Source: a virus. Taken from it: a stretch of 40,580 nt of DNA. Where the stretch lies: IMG/VR virus record IMGVR_UViG_3300050821_001649, positions 1-40,580 of that record; one strand, given 5' to 3'. The translations under genes were made by a program, and so were the position numbers. Positions within the stretch are counted from its first letter, which is position 1. Each line of letters starts with the position of its first letter. The notes under the pieces are model-generated. The model searched no databases, was not told where the DNA came from, and saw only the letters and a program-made list of their open reading frames with translations. This document shows, piece by piece, positions 7,744 to 29,696 of the stretch.

Positions 7744-8616
7744 TTAATCAATGATCTTGAGGTTGTTTCTCAAGACGGGTTGGACCTGAGAGGCGGTTTT
7801 AATGTTGGCCTGGATATCAACCTGGTCAAACACGTTGGAATCGCCCTGATAAGTGCCCATGTAGAAGAAGCTGGTCACGTTCTGGTTCTCAATGACTTCA
7901 TCCACATCATTCAAGAGATTCTCGTTAGCCATTGCCAGGAACAAGTTCGTCGTTCCACCAATGATCGAGCCGTCTTGGCCGTTAGCCCCAGAGTCCTGGG
8001 AGAACATACCCGTCAGACAGATATGAAGCTCTGTACAACCATTTTCCATAGCGATCTTGACTGGGCCAGCTTCTCGATACCCACCATCTGCATAACCATC
8101 TATGCCGTTCTTGGCGATAAACCCATCTACCATTGGGTAGATGATGCAAGAGCAAACGATAGCGTCTTGGAAGTCTTCAATGGTTTCAACTTTACCCAAG
8201 GCATCGTTATCGGTTTCAAACGTGCCATCGGGGTTCGCGGTAATGTGCTGGTGATACCCGGTGTTGATATGAACCCGCGAGATGGTGACAGGGACAGACG
8301 GGCGGCCAACAATGTACTTCTGGATCAATTTACGAAGGGGACCATAGCCGTAAGGAACCCCTGGATAACGGCGAAGGGCTAAGTCGCCTATCAAAGCGAT
8401 ATCATCCTTCTTCACAAAGATTTGATCAGTGCTTGTGATTTCAGCCAAAACTTGCAAACCCACTTGCGGACCACGGAAACCAAGAACAGATGCCCAGATA
8501 GAGCCCGCCGAAACGCCAAAGAGTTGGTCATATTTGACATTGGCTAAAGGACCGATAGTGTAACCAGCGTGAGCCGCAATACGAGAACCGCCGCCGTTAA
8601 AGACGATACCAATCAT
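7744..8616 (-). CDS. Patatin-like phospholipase
   Basis: The 290-aa product shows the complete patatin catalytic set: a GGGSR oxyanion-hole strand (residues 8-12), the nucleophile elbow G-V-S-A-G-S with Ser36, and the Asp of D-G-G at residue 177. Patatins are Ser-Asp dyad lipid acyl hydrolases. It overlaps the upstream holin candidate by ATGA and lies downstream of the GH25 lysozyme, in one lysis-like operon ended by a terminator. There is no spanin-like gene nearby, so attack on membrane phospholipid during lysis is an attractive inference; an effector or membrane-remodelling role is also possible. No signal peptide is seen, so access to membrane would come through the holin lesion or from the inner face. 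Confidence 0.88.
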   Translation of the reverse strand: MIGIVFNGGGSRIAAHAGYTIGPLANVKYDQLFGVSAGSIWASVLGFRGPQVGLQVLAEITSTDQIFVKKDDIALIGDLALRRYPGVPYGYGPLRKLIQKYIVGRPSVPVTISRVHINTGYHQHITANPDGTFETDNDALGKVETIEDFQDAIVCSCIIYPMVDGFIAKNGIDGYADGGYREAGPVKIAMENGCTELHICLTGMFSQDSGANGQDGSIIGGTTNLFLAMANENLLNDVDEVIENQNVTSFFYMGTYQGDSNVFDQVDIQANIKTASQVQPVLRNNLKIID

Positions 8617-17015: not shown

Positions 17016-17909
17016 CTATCTCCCAACATAATCCAAGCACAGAGGACAGCCATCACAAGGGACGGCGTGAAGCGTGCCAAGTTCTCCTGCTACCCAGTGA
17101 TTGCCATATCCATCACAGCAACCCGGCACCTCATCTAAAACTTCTTCCCCGGCCCTCAATTTCTCGATAGCCTCTTGGATCTTGGCTTTATCAGAAGCGG
17201 TTAAGGATGCTTTTGCCGCATCTGATAGAAGGATTACGCTCTTCTCTTCTTTCTTAACGTATTTCTGAAGTTTGGCATCCCAGACTTTATCCTTGTAGAA
17301 ATCGCCCTGAGAGCCGTGATATCCTGCGCAACTGGCATACATTTTTTTCATGAAACCGTCATTTGAGAGCCAAATATCTTTCTCTGACTCATCGTATATC
17401 CACCCTTCTCCATAGGTCAGAAGACGGCCGCTAGCTGTCAAAATGGCGATCTTTTGGTACTTAGGCATGAAGGACATGAAGTTCAGCCCATATACGCCAG
17501 CCATGAAAGCCATCCCCCGCGAGTCGGACCACTCCCCAAAAGGAAAACGAGTTTTGGTCATCATCACAGTCTGTTTGACCATATCATCCCAGTTAGCCCA
17601 GTGCCCATTGTGAGAGAGAGCCGCTTCGCAAGTGCCCACCGTTGTCAAAGGCACATTGACTGAAACCGGGAACGGATGACACAAAGCCGATGACTTTTCT
17701 CCGATAGATGCCAGTCGGAAATGTAAGACGTAGGGAGGTTTGATCTCTGCCATTTTGGCAATCGCCTTTTGAGGGTCGATGTTTTTGAGATAGTGGACCT
17801 TTCCGGCTTGAATCCAAGAAAGCCCTGCACCGTCAGGATTGGCAATAGCAGCTTGCTGCATCCATTCTTTTGGTGGTTTCTGCGTCTTTGACGCCATGAT
17901 CACGCACAT
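17016..17909 (-). CDS. Class II glutamine amidotransferase-like Ntn hydrolase
   Basis: The 297-aa product begins M-C-V-I-M-A, placing Cys2 as the N-terminal nucleophile after Met removal. It continues with N-P-D-G-A-G, a L-H-F-R-L-A-S strand and a L-S-H-N-G-H-W motif, the landmarks of class II glutaminase domains that release ammonia from glutamine. The C-terminal region has a C-C-D-G / C-D-G-C-P-L-C cluster suggestive of metal binding. It overlaps the amidoligase gene by one base. Families pairing a GAT-II with an amidoligase are known from phages and bacteria, and it probably works with the 17909-18682 enzyme. Confidence 0.82.
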   Translation of the reverse strand: MCVIMASKTQKPPKEWMQQAAIANPDGAGLSWIQAGKVHYLKNIDPQKAIAKMAEIKPPYVLHFRLASIGEKSSALCHPFPVSVNVPLTTVGTCEAALSHNGHWANWDDMVKQTVMMTKTRFPFGEWSDSRGMAFMAGVYGLNFMSFMPKYQKIAILTASGRLLTYGEGWIYDESEKDIWLSNDGFMKKMYASCAGYHGSQGDFYKDKVWDAKLQKYVKKEEKSVILLSDAAKASLTASDKAKIQEAIEKLRAGEEVLDEVPGCCDGYGNHWVAGELGTLHAVPCDGCPLCLDYVGR

Positions 17910-18682
17910 TAGATAACTCCCTCTATCTGTAATAGTTCTGCTATTTTCACTCTCGTCTTCGTTGCCAACGTTAAGACTCTTCCGTTAGGCACCGGGTCAA
18001 AAAGGACTTCTCTCAGAGGATGGTACGACTCGACACTCATCCCCGTTGGGTTATCATCCTCAGTAGACATATCGACGTTAAATGCTACTTCTCGCTTTTG
18101 AATCGAAAGCCACTTCTCGATCAACTCAACCAAATAGTCAAACGCCGCGAGAGATAACCTCTTTTCTTCAAACATCGGCAAAAGCCTGAATTCAACCGTG
18201 CCATGTAACGCATGACAATAATTGATGTGCGAGTAACGGATATCGCTCTTGTTCTTCAAAGATGCTTGCTGAAGCGGATCATTGAACCGCTTACGGCAAT
18301 AGTGGTTTTCGCCTTTGAGACGCGTCCAAAACGGATGCTTATCTGGGATTTCCATAGACTTACCCCAAAGCGCCCACTTACGCTCAAAGTATCGATAAAA
18401 CCGCTTGCTCATCAGAATCGAATAGTCCGCATTCGACTTGAAAGAAACGTGAATGTGGAAACCACAGCTTTTATTGCAAGCGTCAGGGTAATGGGTGTCC
18501 AGAAAGCTGCGCCCTTGATCTACCGTCAAAGGAGGCGAAGAAATCTCCCCTTGATGGGTTTTGCCCGTATCACAGACAGACCCGTCATGGTGAACCCACG
18601 AATTACCACTGGCTATTGCAAAAGCCGTTGTGGTATCCCACCCTCCCTCTAATTCAAGCCCTACCAGGGCTATGCGGGACAT
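17909..18682 (-). CDS. Amidoligase (Amidoligase_2-like, COOH-NH2 ligase)
   Basis: The 257-aa product contains V-G-L-E-L-E-G (first metal/ATP strand), H-H-D-G-S-V, G-E-I-S-S-P-P-L, C-G-F-H-I-H-V-S, R-Y-x-x-I-N-Y and T-V-E-F-R-L-L-P, the successive blocks of glutamine-synthetase-fold amidoligases. These enzymes use ATP to join a carboxylate to an amine on peptides or small molecules. Position between a GAT-II and a 170-aa partner points to a modification cassette. The substrate is unknown; cell-wall peptide or a phage/host protein are the options raised for this class. Confidence 0.87.
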   Translation of the reverse strand: MSRIALVGLELEGGWDTTTAFAIASGNSWVHHDGSVCDTGKTHQGEISSPPLTVDQGRSFLDTHYPDACNKSCGFHIHVSFKSNADYSILMSKRFYRYFERKWALWGKSMEIPDKHPFWTRLKGENHYCRKRFNDPLQQASLKNKSDIRYSHINYCHALHGTVEFRLLPMFEEKRLSLAAFDYLVELIEKWLSIQKREVAFNVDMSTEDDNPTGMSVESYHPLREVLFDPVPNGRVLTLATKTRVKIAELLQIEGVI

Positions 18683-19194: not shown

Positions 19195-19201
19195 AATGTC
19201 C

Positions 19202-19391
19202 CCCTAAAAAAATTTCGTCCGGCTGGTCTTCACAGTCAGCATCACCAACACGTTACGGAGCGAACCACGCCTTCAGGCCGAAGCCATCCAACGCTTACCT
19301 CCGACTGCGATGGATATAGCTTTGGGCTATCCCCAGCCGAACTCAGACTCTATGCTTTATTCAGGACTTGAGACCTGTCGCTTTGCAGCGA
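19202..19391 (-). promoter_or_regulatory. Structured leader RNA (attenuator/riboswitch-like) of the amidoligase cassette
   Basis: On the minus strand a TCGCT-GCAA-AGCGA hairpin with GNRA loop (19391-19378) is followed by CAGG/CCTG. A long-range helix CGGCTGG/CCAGCCG then joins 19339-19333 with 19226-19220. It encloses a GGATAGC/GCTATaTCC hairpin, a GCAGTC/GACTGT pairing, a GGAG/CTCC pairing, and two mutually exclusive hairpins, GGC-TTCG-GCC and GCC-TGAA-GGC. A run of seven U (19212-19206) follows the long helix just before the SD. No known riboswitch class is recognised. Confidence 0.5.
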
Positions 19392-19440
19392 GTAGCATTA
19401 AGCGTTAACCCTTCCCAGAATTAACGCCCCCTCTGCTTTG

Positions 19441-19611
19441 TTACTTAATGTACTCCTTGATGAAAGCAACCAAAACATGGTTGGCTTTGTACTTACGCGC
19501 TTCGCACTTTTTTTGGAAAGCCGCAATGATGTCGGCGTCCATGCGGACAGCGATTGTTGCTTTTTCTTTTTCAACATTTTTCTGCAAATGCTGTTCGAGA
19601 TCAATTTGCAT
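19441..19611 (-). CDS. Ribbon-helix-helix (CopG/Arc-type) regulator
   Basis: ATG 19611 follows AAAGGAGTCATTG. The 56-aa product has a charged N-terminal helix, then A-T-I-A-V-R-M-D-A-D (the beta strand with alternating residues), and two helices (I-I-A-A-F-Q-K-K-C and N-H-V-L-V-A-F-I-K-E-Y), the canonical RHH arrangement. Such proteins bind palindromic operators as dimers and often repress their own promoter. A perfect AAGTTAACTT palindrome lies between its promoter and its SD (19625-19634). It probably controls the unit that continues into the amidoligase cassette. Confidence 0.8.
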   Translation of the reverse strand: MQIDLEQHLQKNVEKEKATIAVRMDADIIAAFQKKCEARKYKANHVLVAFIKEYIK

Positions 19612-21870: not shown

Positions 21871-21945
21871 CTAGTTCCAAATGGACCCCGCCCCTGGATA
21901 GGAGCGGTGCCATAACCAAGCCCAAAGTTTCACATTCTCTTTCAT
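21871..21945 (-). CDS. Short ORF (24 aa), doubtful
   Basis: A Trp-rich 24-codon frame starts on the ATGA of the preceding stop and ends 8 bp before the next SD-bearing start. Position is gene-like but it is too short to support by sequence alone. Confidence 0.3.
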   Translation of the reverse strand: MKENVKLWAWLWHRSYPGAGSIWN

Positions 21946-22409
21946 AGTTTTGGGACCTTTGGGTAATGCTTCCTTACGATATCCGCACATTTTTTTAAGA
22001 CTTTGGCCTTGGCGGCATCGGCGGCGGCATCGGCGGCGGCATAGGCGGCATAGGCGGCGGCATAGGCGGCGGCATAGGCGGCATAGGCGGCGGCATAGGC
22101 GGCGGTTTTGACCTCTTCCAATGTCACCTTTTCACCATTCGCCCAAGCTCTAGCAACTTTCAAAGCTTCGGCAGGGCGTTTCTCGCCTTTCTTCACATAT
22201 TTCAGAGACAATTCAGCGCAATCGCAAGCGGCTAAAACTAGATTCATACGTGCTTTTGATCCTGCTATTCCACTCTTCTTTCCTAAAAGCCATAACATCC
22301 AGTCACCACGTTCACAAGTTTCCCAAGCTTGCTTTTCTGTTTTATCGCCTATCCATTCAACGGCAGAATTACAGGCACCTAATTTTTTCAGCTTCTCTTT
22401 GAATTTCAT
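21942..22409 (-). CDS. Imm5-like protein with Ala/Tyr/Asp repeat tract
   Basis: The 155-aa product fits the phage/bacterial protein type often annotated as putative immunity protein Imm5: G-A-C-x-x-A-V-E-W-I-G-x-K-T, A-W-E-T-C-E-R-G-D-W-M-L-W-L, A-C-D-C-A-E-L-S-L-K-Y-V. Then comes an A-A-Y-A-A repeat (about residues 102-135) and a basic C-terminus. The repeats are alanine-rich with Tyr and Asp every 4-5 residues, so they could form a helical rod. Whether it neutralises a toxin or has a phage-specific role is untested. ATG 22409 overlaps the previous stop. Confidence 0.7.
   Translation of the reverse strand: MKFKEKLKKLGACNSAVEWIGDKTEKQAWETCERGDWMLWLLGKKSGIAGSKARMNLVLAACDCAELSLKYVKKGEKRPAEALKVARAWANGEKVTLEEVKTAAYAAAYAAYAAAYAAAYAAYAAADAAADAAKAKVLKKCADIVRKHYPKVPKL
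22011..22106 (-). repeat. GCC/TAT codon repeat tract
   Basis: On the plus strand, near-perfect tandem units of GGCGGCATA, with GGCGGCGGCATA and CATC variants. It encodes the Ala/Tyr/Asp repeat of the Imm5-like protein and should be prone to slippage in steps of three. Confidence 0.8.
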
Positions 22410-22836: not shown

Positions 22837-23283
22837 TTATCCCCTATCCGCTAAAGCAAGGCGGTTTTGACGTTCCGCAAAATCAAGGTTTGAGAGGATT
22901 GTTAGTTCACGAATAGCGGTTTCGTAGTGCAAAAGGCTAGAGCGTCTAACCGCTTGCGCGCGTGAGGATTCGCGGCCCTTGGATATCTCCCCTAAGAGCG
23001 TATCGATCCGGCGTCTCATATATCCCAGAGAGTTATCAAGGTTATCCAAGCCCTCCGGTGCCTCGACAAACAGGTCAATATTGATTCCAAGCTTGGACAT
23101 AATCCCCCTAACCTTTGATTGATGCTTGGACGTCGAAACCGAATAGCTGTAATTGTTGAACACCACCTTTCCCCCGATTTTCGCCACGAATAACCACCAA
23201 TTGTAAGAATGAGCCTTTAGCGTGTTAGGGTCAAAAGTGACGTTTGAGCCCTTGTAAATCCCCGTCCGTTTCATGAGTTTCAT
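22837..23283 (-). CDS. Hypothetical protein, first gene behind the hammerhead
   Basis: ATG 23283 follows AGGAGGGGACTAG. The 148-aa product begins with a beta-rich part (G-I-Y-K-G-S-N-V-T-F-D and W-L-F-V-A-K-I-G-G-K-V-V-F-N) that looks like a small wing or SH3-like domain, then a long charged helical C-terminus. No family recognised. Its leader contains a complete type II hammerhead ribozyme. Confidence 0.65.
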   Translation of the reverse strand: MKLMKRTGIYKGSNVTFDPNTLKAHSYNWWLFVAKIGGKVVFNNYSYSVSTSKHQSKVRGIMSKLGINIDLFVEAPEGLDNLDNSLGYMRRRIDTLLGEISKGRESSRAQAVRRSSLLHYETAIRELTILSNLDFAERQNRLALADRG

Positions 23284-23307
23284 CTAGTCCCCTCCTAAGT
23301 GTGTTCT

Positions 23308-23358
23308 GACCTCATCAGCGTTGGAATAACCAACGGACGGCCTAGGGCCGTTTCGGTC
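23308..23358 (-). ncRNA. Type II hammerhead ribozyme
   Basis: On the minus strand the conserved core is complete. Stem II 5' strand GACC (23358-23355), GAA (23354-23352), stem III ACGGCC-CTA-GGCCGT (23351-23337) including the A15.1-U16.1 pair, C17 (23336) as cleavage nucleotide, stem I CGTTGG-TTATT-CCAACG (23335-23319), CTGATGA (23318-23312), and stem II 3' strand GGTC (23311-23308). Stem II is the open helix, so this is type II. Self-cleavage would fall between 23336 and 23335, just downstream of the upstream gene's stop. Confidence 0.92.
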
Positions 23359-23550
23359 TTACTTCGTCGGCTTGCTGTACTTGTTGCGGTTCCTCCTATG
23401 CATGGCGTTCACTTCGTTTACCCTGCTGTCCGGCTGGTCGGCCTGCCACACGCCACACTTAAGGCAACGCGATTGCCCTTTGTGATGAATGTAGTCCGTT
23501 TGGCATTCGCAATCCCAATAGCTGGGCGTTGTCTTCGTGCTGTTGCCCAT
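23359..23550 (-). CDS. Small zinc-ribbon protein (63 aa)
   Basis: ATG 23550 after GGAAAGGTGGGACGGG. The product has D-C-E-C-Q then C-L-K-C-G-V-W, a zinc-ribbon layout, with a basic tail. Its stop immediately precedes the hammerhead, so its mRNA would be cut just after the stop codon. Confidence 0.65.
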   Translation of the reverse strand: MGNSTKTTPSYWDCECQTDYIHHKGQSRCLKCGVWQADQPDSRVNEVNAMHRRNRNKYSKPTK

Positions 23551-23571
23551 CCCGTCCCACCTTTCCGGCCT

Positions 23572-23736
23572 TTAGGCCTTATATTCGATTAAAACGCCGA
23601 AACGATTCGAAAACCCGCGCTCTTTCATAGCGTGTTTACTTAAAAGATAGACTGAATATAAGTGTGTAGGTAACAACCCGCTTTGATAGCGTATGTATTC
23701 CATTGCATCGTATTTTGTTCTAAAAACTTCTAACAT
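23572..23736 (-). CDS. Hypothetical protein (54 aa)
   Basis: ATG 23736 overlaps the previous gene by 7 nt. The product has a helical N-terminus (V-F-R-T-K-Y-D-A-M-E-Y-I-R) and a basic Phe-rich end. Function unknown. Confidence 0.55.
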   Translation of the reverse strand: MLEVFRTKYDAMEYIRYQSGLLPTHLYSVYLLSKHAMKERGFSNRFGVLIEYKA

Positions 23737-27102: not shown

Positions 27103-27770
27103 TGGCCGGTCGTCCGCGTCACGCTAATACGATCAATGCTATTCCTGAAGGTCCGATGCCGACGGCTAAGGCTAAGTGGGCGGCAATCGCTAAATGGCAC
27201 GCCATTAACGATGAGAGACGTAAGGGTGGATACGACGAGATAACCGGTCATGAGTTCATGAAGCATACCGGTATCAAAGAGATCGATATCCTGAATGCCG
27301 GGTCGCACAAAGAGTATATCGAAGCCGTGATGTCCCTAGCCAAGGGGCAGTCCACGTTGTGGTTCAAGGATGAAATCGAGCATCTTCAACAGTCGATGAA
27401 GAATATGCGCGAAGCTGGAGAAGATAAAGAATATGTCAAGATGGCCTTTGAACTGGCCAATATGCTCAAGTTCAAGGATACCGACTTCTCTGGGATGGAA
27501 GATTCGGAAGCCAAGACGGCGGTTGAGACGGTTGAAGAAATAATGAATTTGCTTAATGACCCGGCAGTGGTATCGGCGCTGAAACAGGAGGAAGGAATTG
27601 TCTCGCAAAAGGTTATCCCAGCTCTCATTTCAGCGAATTTTAAGTCTGGAGCAAAAGCAAAAATTATTACGTCTACACGCCCTGGTGAGTCAGTTGAAGG
27701 TGCAATCGAGGCAAGATCCGATAAGCTTGTGGATACCGTTTCAGAAGCAGGAGAGGGGCCTGTACAGTGA
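27102..27770 (+). CDS. Candidate small terminase subunit (by position)
   Basis: The 222-aa product starts with a basic segment (A-G-R-P-R-H) that could bind DNA and is otherwise helical, with a helical central region as in DNA-recognition subunits. It lies immediately before the large terminase ORF. Its last 173 bases overlap the ATPase ORF in another frame, an unusual overlap. No diagnostic motif is present; the assignment rests on position. Confidence 0.45.
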   Translation: MAGRPRHANTINAIPEGPMPTAKAKWAAIAKWHAINDERRKGGYDEITGHEFMKHTGIKEIDILNAGSHKEYIEAVMSLAKGQSTLWFKDEIEHLQQSMKNMREAGEDKEYVKMAFELANMLKFKDTDFSGMEDSEAKTAVETVEEIMNLLNDPAVVSALKQEEGIVSQKVIPALISANFKSGAKAKIITSTRPGESVEGAIEARSDKLVDTVSEAGEGPVQ

Positions 27771-28470
27771 GAAACGCTTCATCTTTTATACTGGCGCTAA
27801 CCGCACTGGTAAGTCTGACTTTATTTGTGCTTATATCAGCTTATGGCTGTTGGGTCGTCATCCGGCAATTAAAACCCCTAAGAACGGTGTTGCCTGGTTA
27901 TCTGTTACCGACTTCTCAAAAATAGAGCAAGTCTTGTTGCCTAAGTTCATAAGGATGCTGCCGATAGGGTCTTTCACCTACAACGCCCAAAAGGCATTGC
28001 TTGAAATGAAGAACGGGTGCAAGTTGTTCTTTAAATCTGAACAATCAGGCCCACTGTCTTATGAAGGTTCAGATGTTGACTTACTCGCTTTGGACGAAGA
28101 GCATCTTCGCAATACGTTCAATGCGGCAGTAATTCGTACTACAGGACGGAGGGCTAAGATCCTGATCGCCGCTACATTAGTCGGGGGTATAACCTGGATG
28201 TACGACGATTTTATCCTTCCGACCCAAAAAGGGGAGCGCAAGGATGTCGAATTGATAGTCTGCTCTCAATTTGATAACCCGATGCTGGATAAGAAGGAAG
28301 TTCAAGCTGAGTTCGATCGGATGAGTAAATCCGACCCTATCAAAGCGAGAATTTGTATTTTGGGAGAATTTTTGGACATGAGCGGTGAATCGGTATTCCC
28401 GTCCGAGCTTATGTACAATTTGAGGTTGAAGTTGCCGGTGCCGGTGCGTGGTGAACTAATAGGAGCCTAG
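27598..28470 (+). CDS. Large terminase, ATPase part (split)
   Basis: TTG 27598 follows AGGAGGAAGGAA. The 290-aa product has Y-T-G-A-N-R-T-G-K-S as Walker A (residues 64-73), D-L-L-A-L-D-E-E as Walker B (Asp166/Glu167) and the I-A-A-T coupling motif (about 190), i.e. the translocase half of TerL. It then stops after a S-G-E-S-V-F-P segment, just where the linker to the nuclease domain begins. The nuclease half lies 470 bp downstream, so the packaging motor is encoded as two polypeptides unless a recoding or splicing event joins them. Confidence 0.88.
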   Translation: MSRKRLSQLSFQRILSLEQKQKLLRLHALVSQLKVQSRQDPISLWIPFQKQERGLYSEKRFIFYTGANRTGKSDFICAYISLWLLGRHPAIKTPKNGVAWLSVTDFSKIEQVLLPKFIRMLPIGSFTYNAQKALLEMKNGCKLFFKSEQSGPLSYEGSDVDLLALDEEHLRNTFNAAVIRTTGRRAKILIAATLVGGITWMYDDFILPTQKGERKDVELIVCSQFDNPMLDKKEVQAEFDRMSKSDPIKARICILGEFLDMSGESVFPSELMYNLRLKLPVPVRGELIGA

Positions 28471-28478
28471 GAGGCTTT

Positions 28479-28661
28479 ATGGATTTTACGTTTCATTTGA
28501 CTAGCGGTGGTACAAGAACTGTTACTGGCGAGACTTGCAAGATCGATGATAAAGAAATAACCATTTTGGATGAAAATGGCAAGATCTTATTCTGGATTCA
28601 AAAGGTGTTTGCGGCAATGATCATCTATGAAAAACCCAATGTCAAGCTGGTGTCAAAATGA
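28479..28661 (+). CDS. Small hypothetical protein inserted between terminase halves
   Basis: ATG 28479 follows AGGAGGCTTT, its own strong SD, so it is not part of the terminase frame. The 60-aa product is beta-rich (F-T-F-H-L-T-S-G-G-T, K-E-I-T-I-L-D-E-N-G-K-I-L-F) and ends overlapping the next gene. Function unknown; whether it binds the split terminase or the GroES-like product is open. Confidence 0.6.
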   Translation: MDFTFHLTSGGTRTVTGETCKIDDKEITILDENGKILFWIQKVFAAMIIYEKPNVKLVSK

Positions 28662-28954
28662 AGTTCGTTCCAGTAGCCCAGCACATCATGATAAAACCAG
28701 AAGAGATCACAAACACGCTAAAGAAGGTTCAAACAGAAGGTGGGCGTGAGATCGAGATCCTGATGGGGGATCGTTCTAAAGACCTTGCCATTAAAGCTGT
28801 CAATAAGGGAAAGATTGTCCGGTCCAGTAGCAAGCTTTACAAAAAGGGGCAGGTCTTGGTTTATTATCCCTTCTCACCTAATAAATTGGACGTGGAAGGT
28901 ATTGAGCATCACATTATTCACGAACGGGATGTGATGGGAATTGTCGAAGACTAG
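28658..28954 (+). CDS. GroES-like co-chaperonin (98 aa)
   Basis: The length and the end match GroES: residues 1-14 M-K-F-V-P-V-A-Q-H-I-M-I-K-P resemble the family start, the middle has N-K-G-K-I-V followed by K-K-G-Q-V-L-V-Y-Y, and the C-terminus H-H-I-I-H-E-R-D-V-M-G-I-V-E-D parallels the family's I-M-S-E-S-D-I-L-A-I-V-E. A phage GroES can pair with host GroEL to help fold the capsid protein, as known for T4 gp31, though this is inference here. It lies between the two terminase ORFs. Confidence 0.65.
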   Translation: MKFVPVAQHIMIKPEEITNTLKKVQTEGGREIEILMGDRSKDLAIKAVNKGKIVRSSSKLYKKGQVLVYYPFSPNKLDVEGIEHHIIHERDVMGIVED

Positions 28955-29696
28955 CTGGGTAGATTATCCATACGGCAGCGTCTATCGTTTTGAGACGGCT
29001 AGGCACCCCAATCCGAAGTATCATTATGTGATTGGGGCCGACTCGGCATCTGGGCTTCCTAACCGCGATAGATCGGCTGCCCAAGTTGTCTGTATTGAGA
29101 CCCATGAACAAGTAGCGGTTTATGGGGAAGAATGCCCACCAGACCGGTTCGCTTTGATGCTTAGTAAGCTTGGGGATTTTTATAACAACGCCGTCATAGG
29201 CGTGGAACTGGACAAGTATGGATTTCTTACGACAAATATTCTTAAGGATCTGTATTCAAATCTTTACTTTCATATCGCTTCGCCCACTTCCTACGAGATT
29301 AGCATCTCCAAGGAATACGGGTGGAAACCGTCCACGACGAACCGCCAAATCGCGGTTGACTTCCTCAAAATGGACTACGCAGCCAACGCTTCGGAAAGCG
29401 AAACGGAGCGGGAAAAAGCCTTAAAGATCTATGATGCTAGAACGTATGATGAGATGGCATTTTTCATTAAGAACCGGGAGACAGGTAAGGAAGCAGCTCA
29501 GAGAGGTAAGAAGGACGATCTTTTAGCCGCGCTGTGGGTGGCCAATTTCATTTGGCACGAATCTCAGGTGCGTTATGAGTTTAAAGCAGTGGATAACACG
29601 CCGAAACCGTTGTCAATTATTGATGAAATGAGGTTATTGAGGAATGAATCAGAAGCCACCGGAAAAGGATTTGGACCAAGAAAGCTGGTCGAGTGA
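28941..29696 (+). CDS. Large terminase, nuclease part (split)
   Basis: TTG 28941 has GATGGGAA upstream and overlaps the GroES-like stop by 14 bp. The 251-aa product opens with the V-D-Y-P-Y-G-S-V-Y-R-F-E linker typical of TerL, then Y-V-I-G-A-D-S-A-S-G with Asp34, N-N-A-V-I-G-V-E-L-D with Glu89/Asp91, and K-K-D-D-L-L-A-A-L with Asp192/193, the acidic metal-binding residues of the RNase H-like headful nuclease. It makes the packaging cut when paired with the ATPase ORF. Confidence 0.88.
   Translation: MSKTSWVDYPYGSVYRFETARHPNPKYHYVIGADSASGLPNRDRSAAQVVCIETHEQVAVYGEECPPDRFALMLSKLGDFYNNAVIGVELDKYGFLTTNILKDLYSNLYFHIASPTSYEISISKEYGWKPSTTNRQIAVDFLKMDYAANASESETEREKALKIYDARTYDEMAFFIKNRETGKEAAQRGKKDDLLAALWVANFIWHESQVRYEFKAVDNTPKPLSIIDEMRLLRNESEATGKGFGPRKLVE

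Follow-up and report, generated by a model that had tools for sequence, protein, structure and literature searches.

The window analysed here is a complete virus record from IMG/VR, 40,580 bases long. Matches to a portal protein (PHROG 156), a terminase (PHROG 2) and a major head protein (PHROG 9953) identify it as a tailed phage. No near relative was found by a DNA search of the phages collection, nor by searches of viral contigs and the phages collection with the portal protein and the two proteins flanking the element described below. A train of small genes runs leftward, opposite to the structural genes, and within it we identified a complete type II hammerhead ribozyme on the minus strand (23358-23308). 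It lies in noncoding DNA between two co-directional genes, on their sense strand, in a gap of 75 nt in which no promoter-like or terminator-like sites were found. The upstream gene (23359-23550, minus strand, TAA at 23361-23359) encodes a 63-aa protein. The preliminary description called it a zinc ribbon: the four cysteines that are the sole basis for this name are present, but the protein has no Pfam match and its family, PHROG 18262, carries no function annotation. The downstream gene (22837-23283, minus strand) encodes 148 aa and its ATG lies 24 nt past the ribozyme. An antisense ORF placed over the ribozyme by the first gene caller (23299-23592, plus strand) is spurious.

Read 5' to 3' on the minus strand, the stop codon is followed directly by the 5' strand of stem II, GACC (23355-23358), the core residues G12-A13-A14 (GAA, 23352-23354), the stem III hairpin ACGGCC-CTA-GGCCGT (23337-23351), C17 (23336), the stem I hairpin CGTTGG-TTATT-CCAACG (23319-23335), the core heptamer CTGATGA (CUGAUGA, C3-A9, 23312-23318) and the 3' strand of stem II, GGTC (23308-23311). 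All positions of the invariant core (C3 U4 G5 A6 N7 G8 A9 / G12 A13 A14 / A15.1-U16.1 / H17) can be read from the sequence at 23354-23312, with A15.1-U16.1 closing stem III, and position 17 is C here as in 194 of the 196 relatives among the matches listed. Stems I, II and III measure 6, 4 and 6 bp with zero mismatches; I and III are closed by a 5-nt loop (UUAUU) and a CTA loop, respectively, and II is open. When 63 nt containing the element are folded in isolation (−21.1 kcal/mol, z = −2.35), both the minimum free energy (MFE) structure and the centroid reproduce the three-way junction exactly, so the core and pairing first proposed for the element hold. A strict-core descriptor with stem minima of 4, 5 and 5 bp finds one copy in the window and none in 400 Markov-resampled windows. 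By homology to the hammerhead family, cleavage is predicted after C17 (23336) and before 23335. The cut had earlier been placed directly after the stop codon; this needs correction, as the predicted site is 23 nt past the stop and it is the 5' edge of the ribozyme that adjoins it. The 52-nt leader to the 23283 gene was assigned correctly (23284-23335) and contains the Shine-Dalgarno (SD) sequence AGGAGG at approximately 23296-23291.

The Rfam hammerhead model RF02276 gives the element 29.0 bits, under the gathering score of 37, with an E-value of 2.8e-4 in a search of 201 nt; searching the whole window with all families gives 0.057, and that model alone gives 1.4e-5. We built a covariance model, R1, from 30 other viral hammerheads of the non-pseudoknot form, excluding the window, and this model scores the element at 63.6 bits (E = 5.4e-16). 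The covariance search suggested in the preliminary description is negative by the Rfam cut-off and significant with an independent model. The low RF02276 score arises because that model describes a pseudoknotted subclass, whose consensus stem II in the Rfam alignment is 2 bp. Among the 196 distinct viral type II hammerheads in the matches listed, two forms stand out. The first typically combines a stem II of 2-3 bp with pairing between loop I and the tail, and 73% of its listed members have a pseudoknot of at least 4 bp. The second has a stem II of at least 4 bp, a stem I mostly of 6 bp and a loop I of 5-6 nt that is mostly U-N-A-N-G/U, and only 9% of its listed members have the pseudoknot. 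The window element, with its 4-bp stem II, 6-bp stem I and 5-nt U-N-A-N-K loop, belongs to the second form, and the longest helix that its loop I and tail can form is 2 bp. This is a subclass difference: the pseudoknot is typical of the family majority and does not define all of its members. The second form is under-called by the standard Rfam model. Only 25 of 50 records with unmistakable hammerheads reach the RF02276 cut-off, and for 8 of these 50 records that model gives no hit at E = 0.001; R1 recovers 6 of these 8 at 33.7-65.3 bits, four of the six being in its training set. Across the 30 divergent members of the R1 alignment the core is invariant and both partners change in 12 of 15 pairs; these counts call for caution because the descriptor that chose the members demands pairing; it is the spread of pair types that is informative and not the perfect pairing itself. 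Taken together, these features describe an active-looking hammerhead, predicted to cleave, of the non-pseudoknot subclass. The phage PaP3, to which a hammerhead was attributed in 2011, was tried here as a named control and yields none with either Rfam or R1; the 2011 paper placed it among core variants (PMC3088659).

We examined the gene context of at least 196 distinct type II hammerheads from viral contigs (loci L002-L121) that were picked by ribozyme sequence only, and the final test needs no gene selection. In 86% of the 196 listed, a same-strand ORF of at least 30 codons has its stop within −3 to +10 nt of the ribozyme 5' edge, compared to 8% at random positions and 18% on the antisense strand. 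An SD sequence with a start codon 5-60 nt past the ribozyme occurs in 82% of these listed elements (random, 18%; antisense, 12%), and both features together occur in 69% (random, 1.9%; antisense, 2.6%). Counting one ribozyme per record among the matches listed, the joint figure is 65.5%; at CTGATGA heptamers outside ribozymes it is 3.1%. The placement holds within both subclasses of the listed set, in which the distance from ribozyme to stop has its mode at 0 to −1 nt and the median distance to the start is 24 nt. The window element, at 0 nt and 24 nt, is one ordinary case. The pattern was replicated in cellular genome contigs, where the descriptor gave 34 hits, including two probable false positives (stop, 82%; SD and start, 91%; both, 76%). 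In the DNA of the records listed, 36 of 110 carry more than one hammerhead and 74 carry a single one. All 86 pairs of listed neighbouring hammerheads are on the same strand, with a median spacing of 446 nt, and the largest ORF fills 77% of the interval between them, or about one gene per ribozyme. The gene-boundary position is therefore a rule and no peculiarity of this phage. TAG accounts for 64 of the 168 abutting stops in the listed set, perhaps owing to bases that the stop has in common with the ribozyme 5' edge.

A second self-cleaving RNA, absent from the preliminary description of the hammerhead, lies 4 kb from it within the same leftward train, a twister-P5 ribozyme (19362-19437, minus strand; RF02684, 45.7 bits, gathering score 37.6) that begins 3 nt after a TAA. 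With 23 stretches from a pattern scan of viral contigs and the window, we collected 35 distinct twister-P5 elements. A stop codon (within −3 to +15 nt) precedes 77% of them, an SD sequence and start follow 89%, and both are found in 69%, compared to 2.7% at random positions. Twister-P5 ribozymes thus resemble the hammerheads in lying directly after a stop, before the next SD and in arrays, and differ from them in having an unrelated fold and active site. The window copy departs from this pattern in that it is followed by a 163-nt structured leader (19195-19361, minus strand) and not directly by an SD sequence. This leader, which reaches to the 19194 gene, has a branched fold with a 10-bp closing helix and then seven U just before the SD, an attenuator-like arrangement, and it has no Rfam family and no convincing match among phages. 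The TAA upstream of the twister ends a 56-aa ORF (19441-19611, minus strand) that by eye looks like a ribbon-helix-helix protein and may have that fold; it is preceded by a good promoter-like site, TTGACA-17-AATAAT, at 19678-19650 on the minus strand. The segment 19441-19678 together with the twister is possibly a self-contained regulatory cassette that ends in the ribozyme. One record carrying both ribozyme classes is uncommon: twister-P5 occurs in 0 of 50 hammerhead records and a hammerhead in 1 of 22 twister-P5 records (L123), counts that come from incomplete records.

The best explanation of these observations, to which we give a probability of about three in four, is that the hammerhead segments phage polycistronic RNA at gene boundaries by a predicted self-cleavage. 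We favour it because two unrelated folds share the same niche, strand, arrayed occurrence and position between stop and SD. The leftward polycistronic RNA would be cut in cis during its synthesis. With the ribozyme wedged between stop codon and SD, the 23359-23550 gene would be parted from the 23283 gene and neither would be damaged. The upstream message would keep its stop codon and a 23-nt tail with the stem III hairpin and a 2',3'-cyclic phosphate at its 3' end; the downstream message would open with the stem I hairpin, bearing a 5'-OH, and continue through the remainder of the 52-nt leader with a clean ribosome-binding site. Together with the twister-P5 ribozyme, the train would be split into at least three RNAs able to decay and be translated independently. 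Hairpin-led 5'-OH ends are poor substrates for the 5'-end-dependent RNase E, a discrimination that makes protection or uncoupled decay plausible. Cleavage itself is predicted from homology, and we infer that it takes place in vivo, protects the ends and affects expression. The operon-splitting site of the preliminary description, as a predicted function, is supported by the placement of the 196 listed hammerheads and by their same-strand arrays. Its picture of an otherwise continuous operon does not cleanly hold: the train also contains the twister-P5 ribozyme and, near 21.45 kb and 19.66 kb, sites resembling promoters or terminators. These sites suggest that the train may have internal transcription starts, though they are no more numerous in the region than expected by chance. 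That the mRNA carrying the hammerhead is expressed early was an assumption.

What bacterial and phage hammerheads do has been a standing question since their discovery in 2011. Operon splitting is not new in kind, because Perreault et al. proposed a processing role for clustered phage hammerheads and reported that such arrays cleave in vitro and in E. coli (PMC3088659). The RF02276 hammerheads of that study resemble the window element in their core, their permutation (I and III closed, II open), their phage setting, their gene-flanking position and the processing of long phage RNAs proposed for them (PMC3088659). The window element, whose activity is a prediction, differs in its 4-bp stem II and 5-nt loop, and no pseudoknot of at least 3 bp could be drawn between its loop I and tail. 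What is added here is that proximity to phage genes is sharpened to a testable rule (stop, ribozyme, SD, start, on the sense strand and with about one gene per ribozyme) that is common to two unrelated ribozyme classes; neither the sharp rule nor its extension to twister-P5 was found in the limited body of literature searched.

The predicted outcome resembles that of engineered ribozyme insulators. In the RiboJ insulator, a hammerhead cuts back the 5' leader so that a constant sequence beginning with a hairpin precedes the SD, much as the window element would; RiboJ was derived by engineering a satellite RNA hammerhead, which has a different permutation, and is placed after promoters, not between genes. 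The glmS ribozyme of bacteria likewise cleaves itself ahead of a coding region and leaves a 5'-OH mRNA, and it differs in being ligand-dependent, in repressing its own gene and in its unrelated structure.

Several observations weigh against a simple cutting role, among them the sub-threshold Rfam score. The close spacing of phage genes would by itself also bring any element that lies between them up against a stop codon. No loop I tertiary partner, as needed for fast cleavage, was identified in the window element. Nine nucleotides of the cleavage strand, CCGUCCGUU, have a perfect complement among the opening codons of the downstream gene (approximately 23262-23270 against 23340-23330, minus strand), and in a longer RNA the MFE fold pairs this stretch with the downstream gene instead of forming the ribozyme (local p = 0.004). 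Slow cleavage could therefore be pre-empted, although in an RNA that folds as it is transcribed the ribozyme would be about 38 nt ahead of the complement. The same stretch could serve a regulated switch in which the downstream alternative fold, a ribosome at the abutting stop or a ligand gates the cut, so that cleavage reports translation of the upstream gene. Given the known size of a terminating ribosome's footprint, the ribozyme 5' edge falls inside it in 86% of the listed hammerheads. We nevertheless regard a switch as unlikely: downstream complementarity is not enriched across the listed members of the family, the element has minimal stems and no attached aptamer domain, and genome compaction also predicts tight placement.

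Alternatively, the ribozymes could free blocks of genes, here the roughly 3.9 kb between 23335 and 19.4 kb that the hammerhead and the twister-P5 flank in the right order, for circularisation by an RtcB-type ligase or for other re-ligation. Ends with a 5'-OH and a 2',3'-cyclic phosphate suit RtcB-type ligation in principle, so the chemistry fits. We consider block release improbable all the same, as most arrays among the matches listed enclose single genes of about 446 nt, the 74 of 110 listed records with a single ribozyme in the DNA on record are unable to bracket a block, and the two classes seldom share a record, as noted above. Perreault et al. could not detect spliced or circular products (PMC3088659). 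Least probable, and very much so, is that the elements are decayed or neutral repeats, or recombination linkers for swapping gene cassettes, kept as DNA and not as RNA. Copies within one record are alike, for example in L015, and they sit exactly at gene edges, as a linker would; the two-sided variation of 12 of 15 pairs around an invariant core (in a set chosen for pairing), the common strand of all listed neighbours and the filling of the same niche by the unrelated twister fold argue against this reading. We also put forward, tentatively and as less likely than not, a broader proposal: unrelated self-cleaving folds have converged in phages on a stop-anchored, SD-preceding cut that yields single-gene, hairpin-capped RNAs, and the strict abutment of the stop codon may reflect a cut timed by the ribosome as it terminates.

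Dense arrays, with seven to ten ribozymes per stretch and one per small gene, occur in L178 (from the named isolate Singulisphaera sp. GP187), L070, L015 and L136. Singulisphaera sp. GP187 has seven R1 matches, and L136 has eight twister-P5 ribozymes consecutively. A fluoride riboswitch-like match in the window at 7215-7170 (16.6 bits, 34 needed; E = 3.8) is attributed to chance. The leftward region of the phage also contains genes resembling a patatin-like phospholipase (7744-8616, minus strand), an amidoligase (17909-18682, minus strand) and an Imm5-like immunity protein (21942-22409, minus strand). On the plus strand, two ORFs set apart by several small ones (27598-28470 and 28941-29696) each have terminase-like matches, and the region 27598-29696 possibly encodes an interrupted or split terminase.
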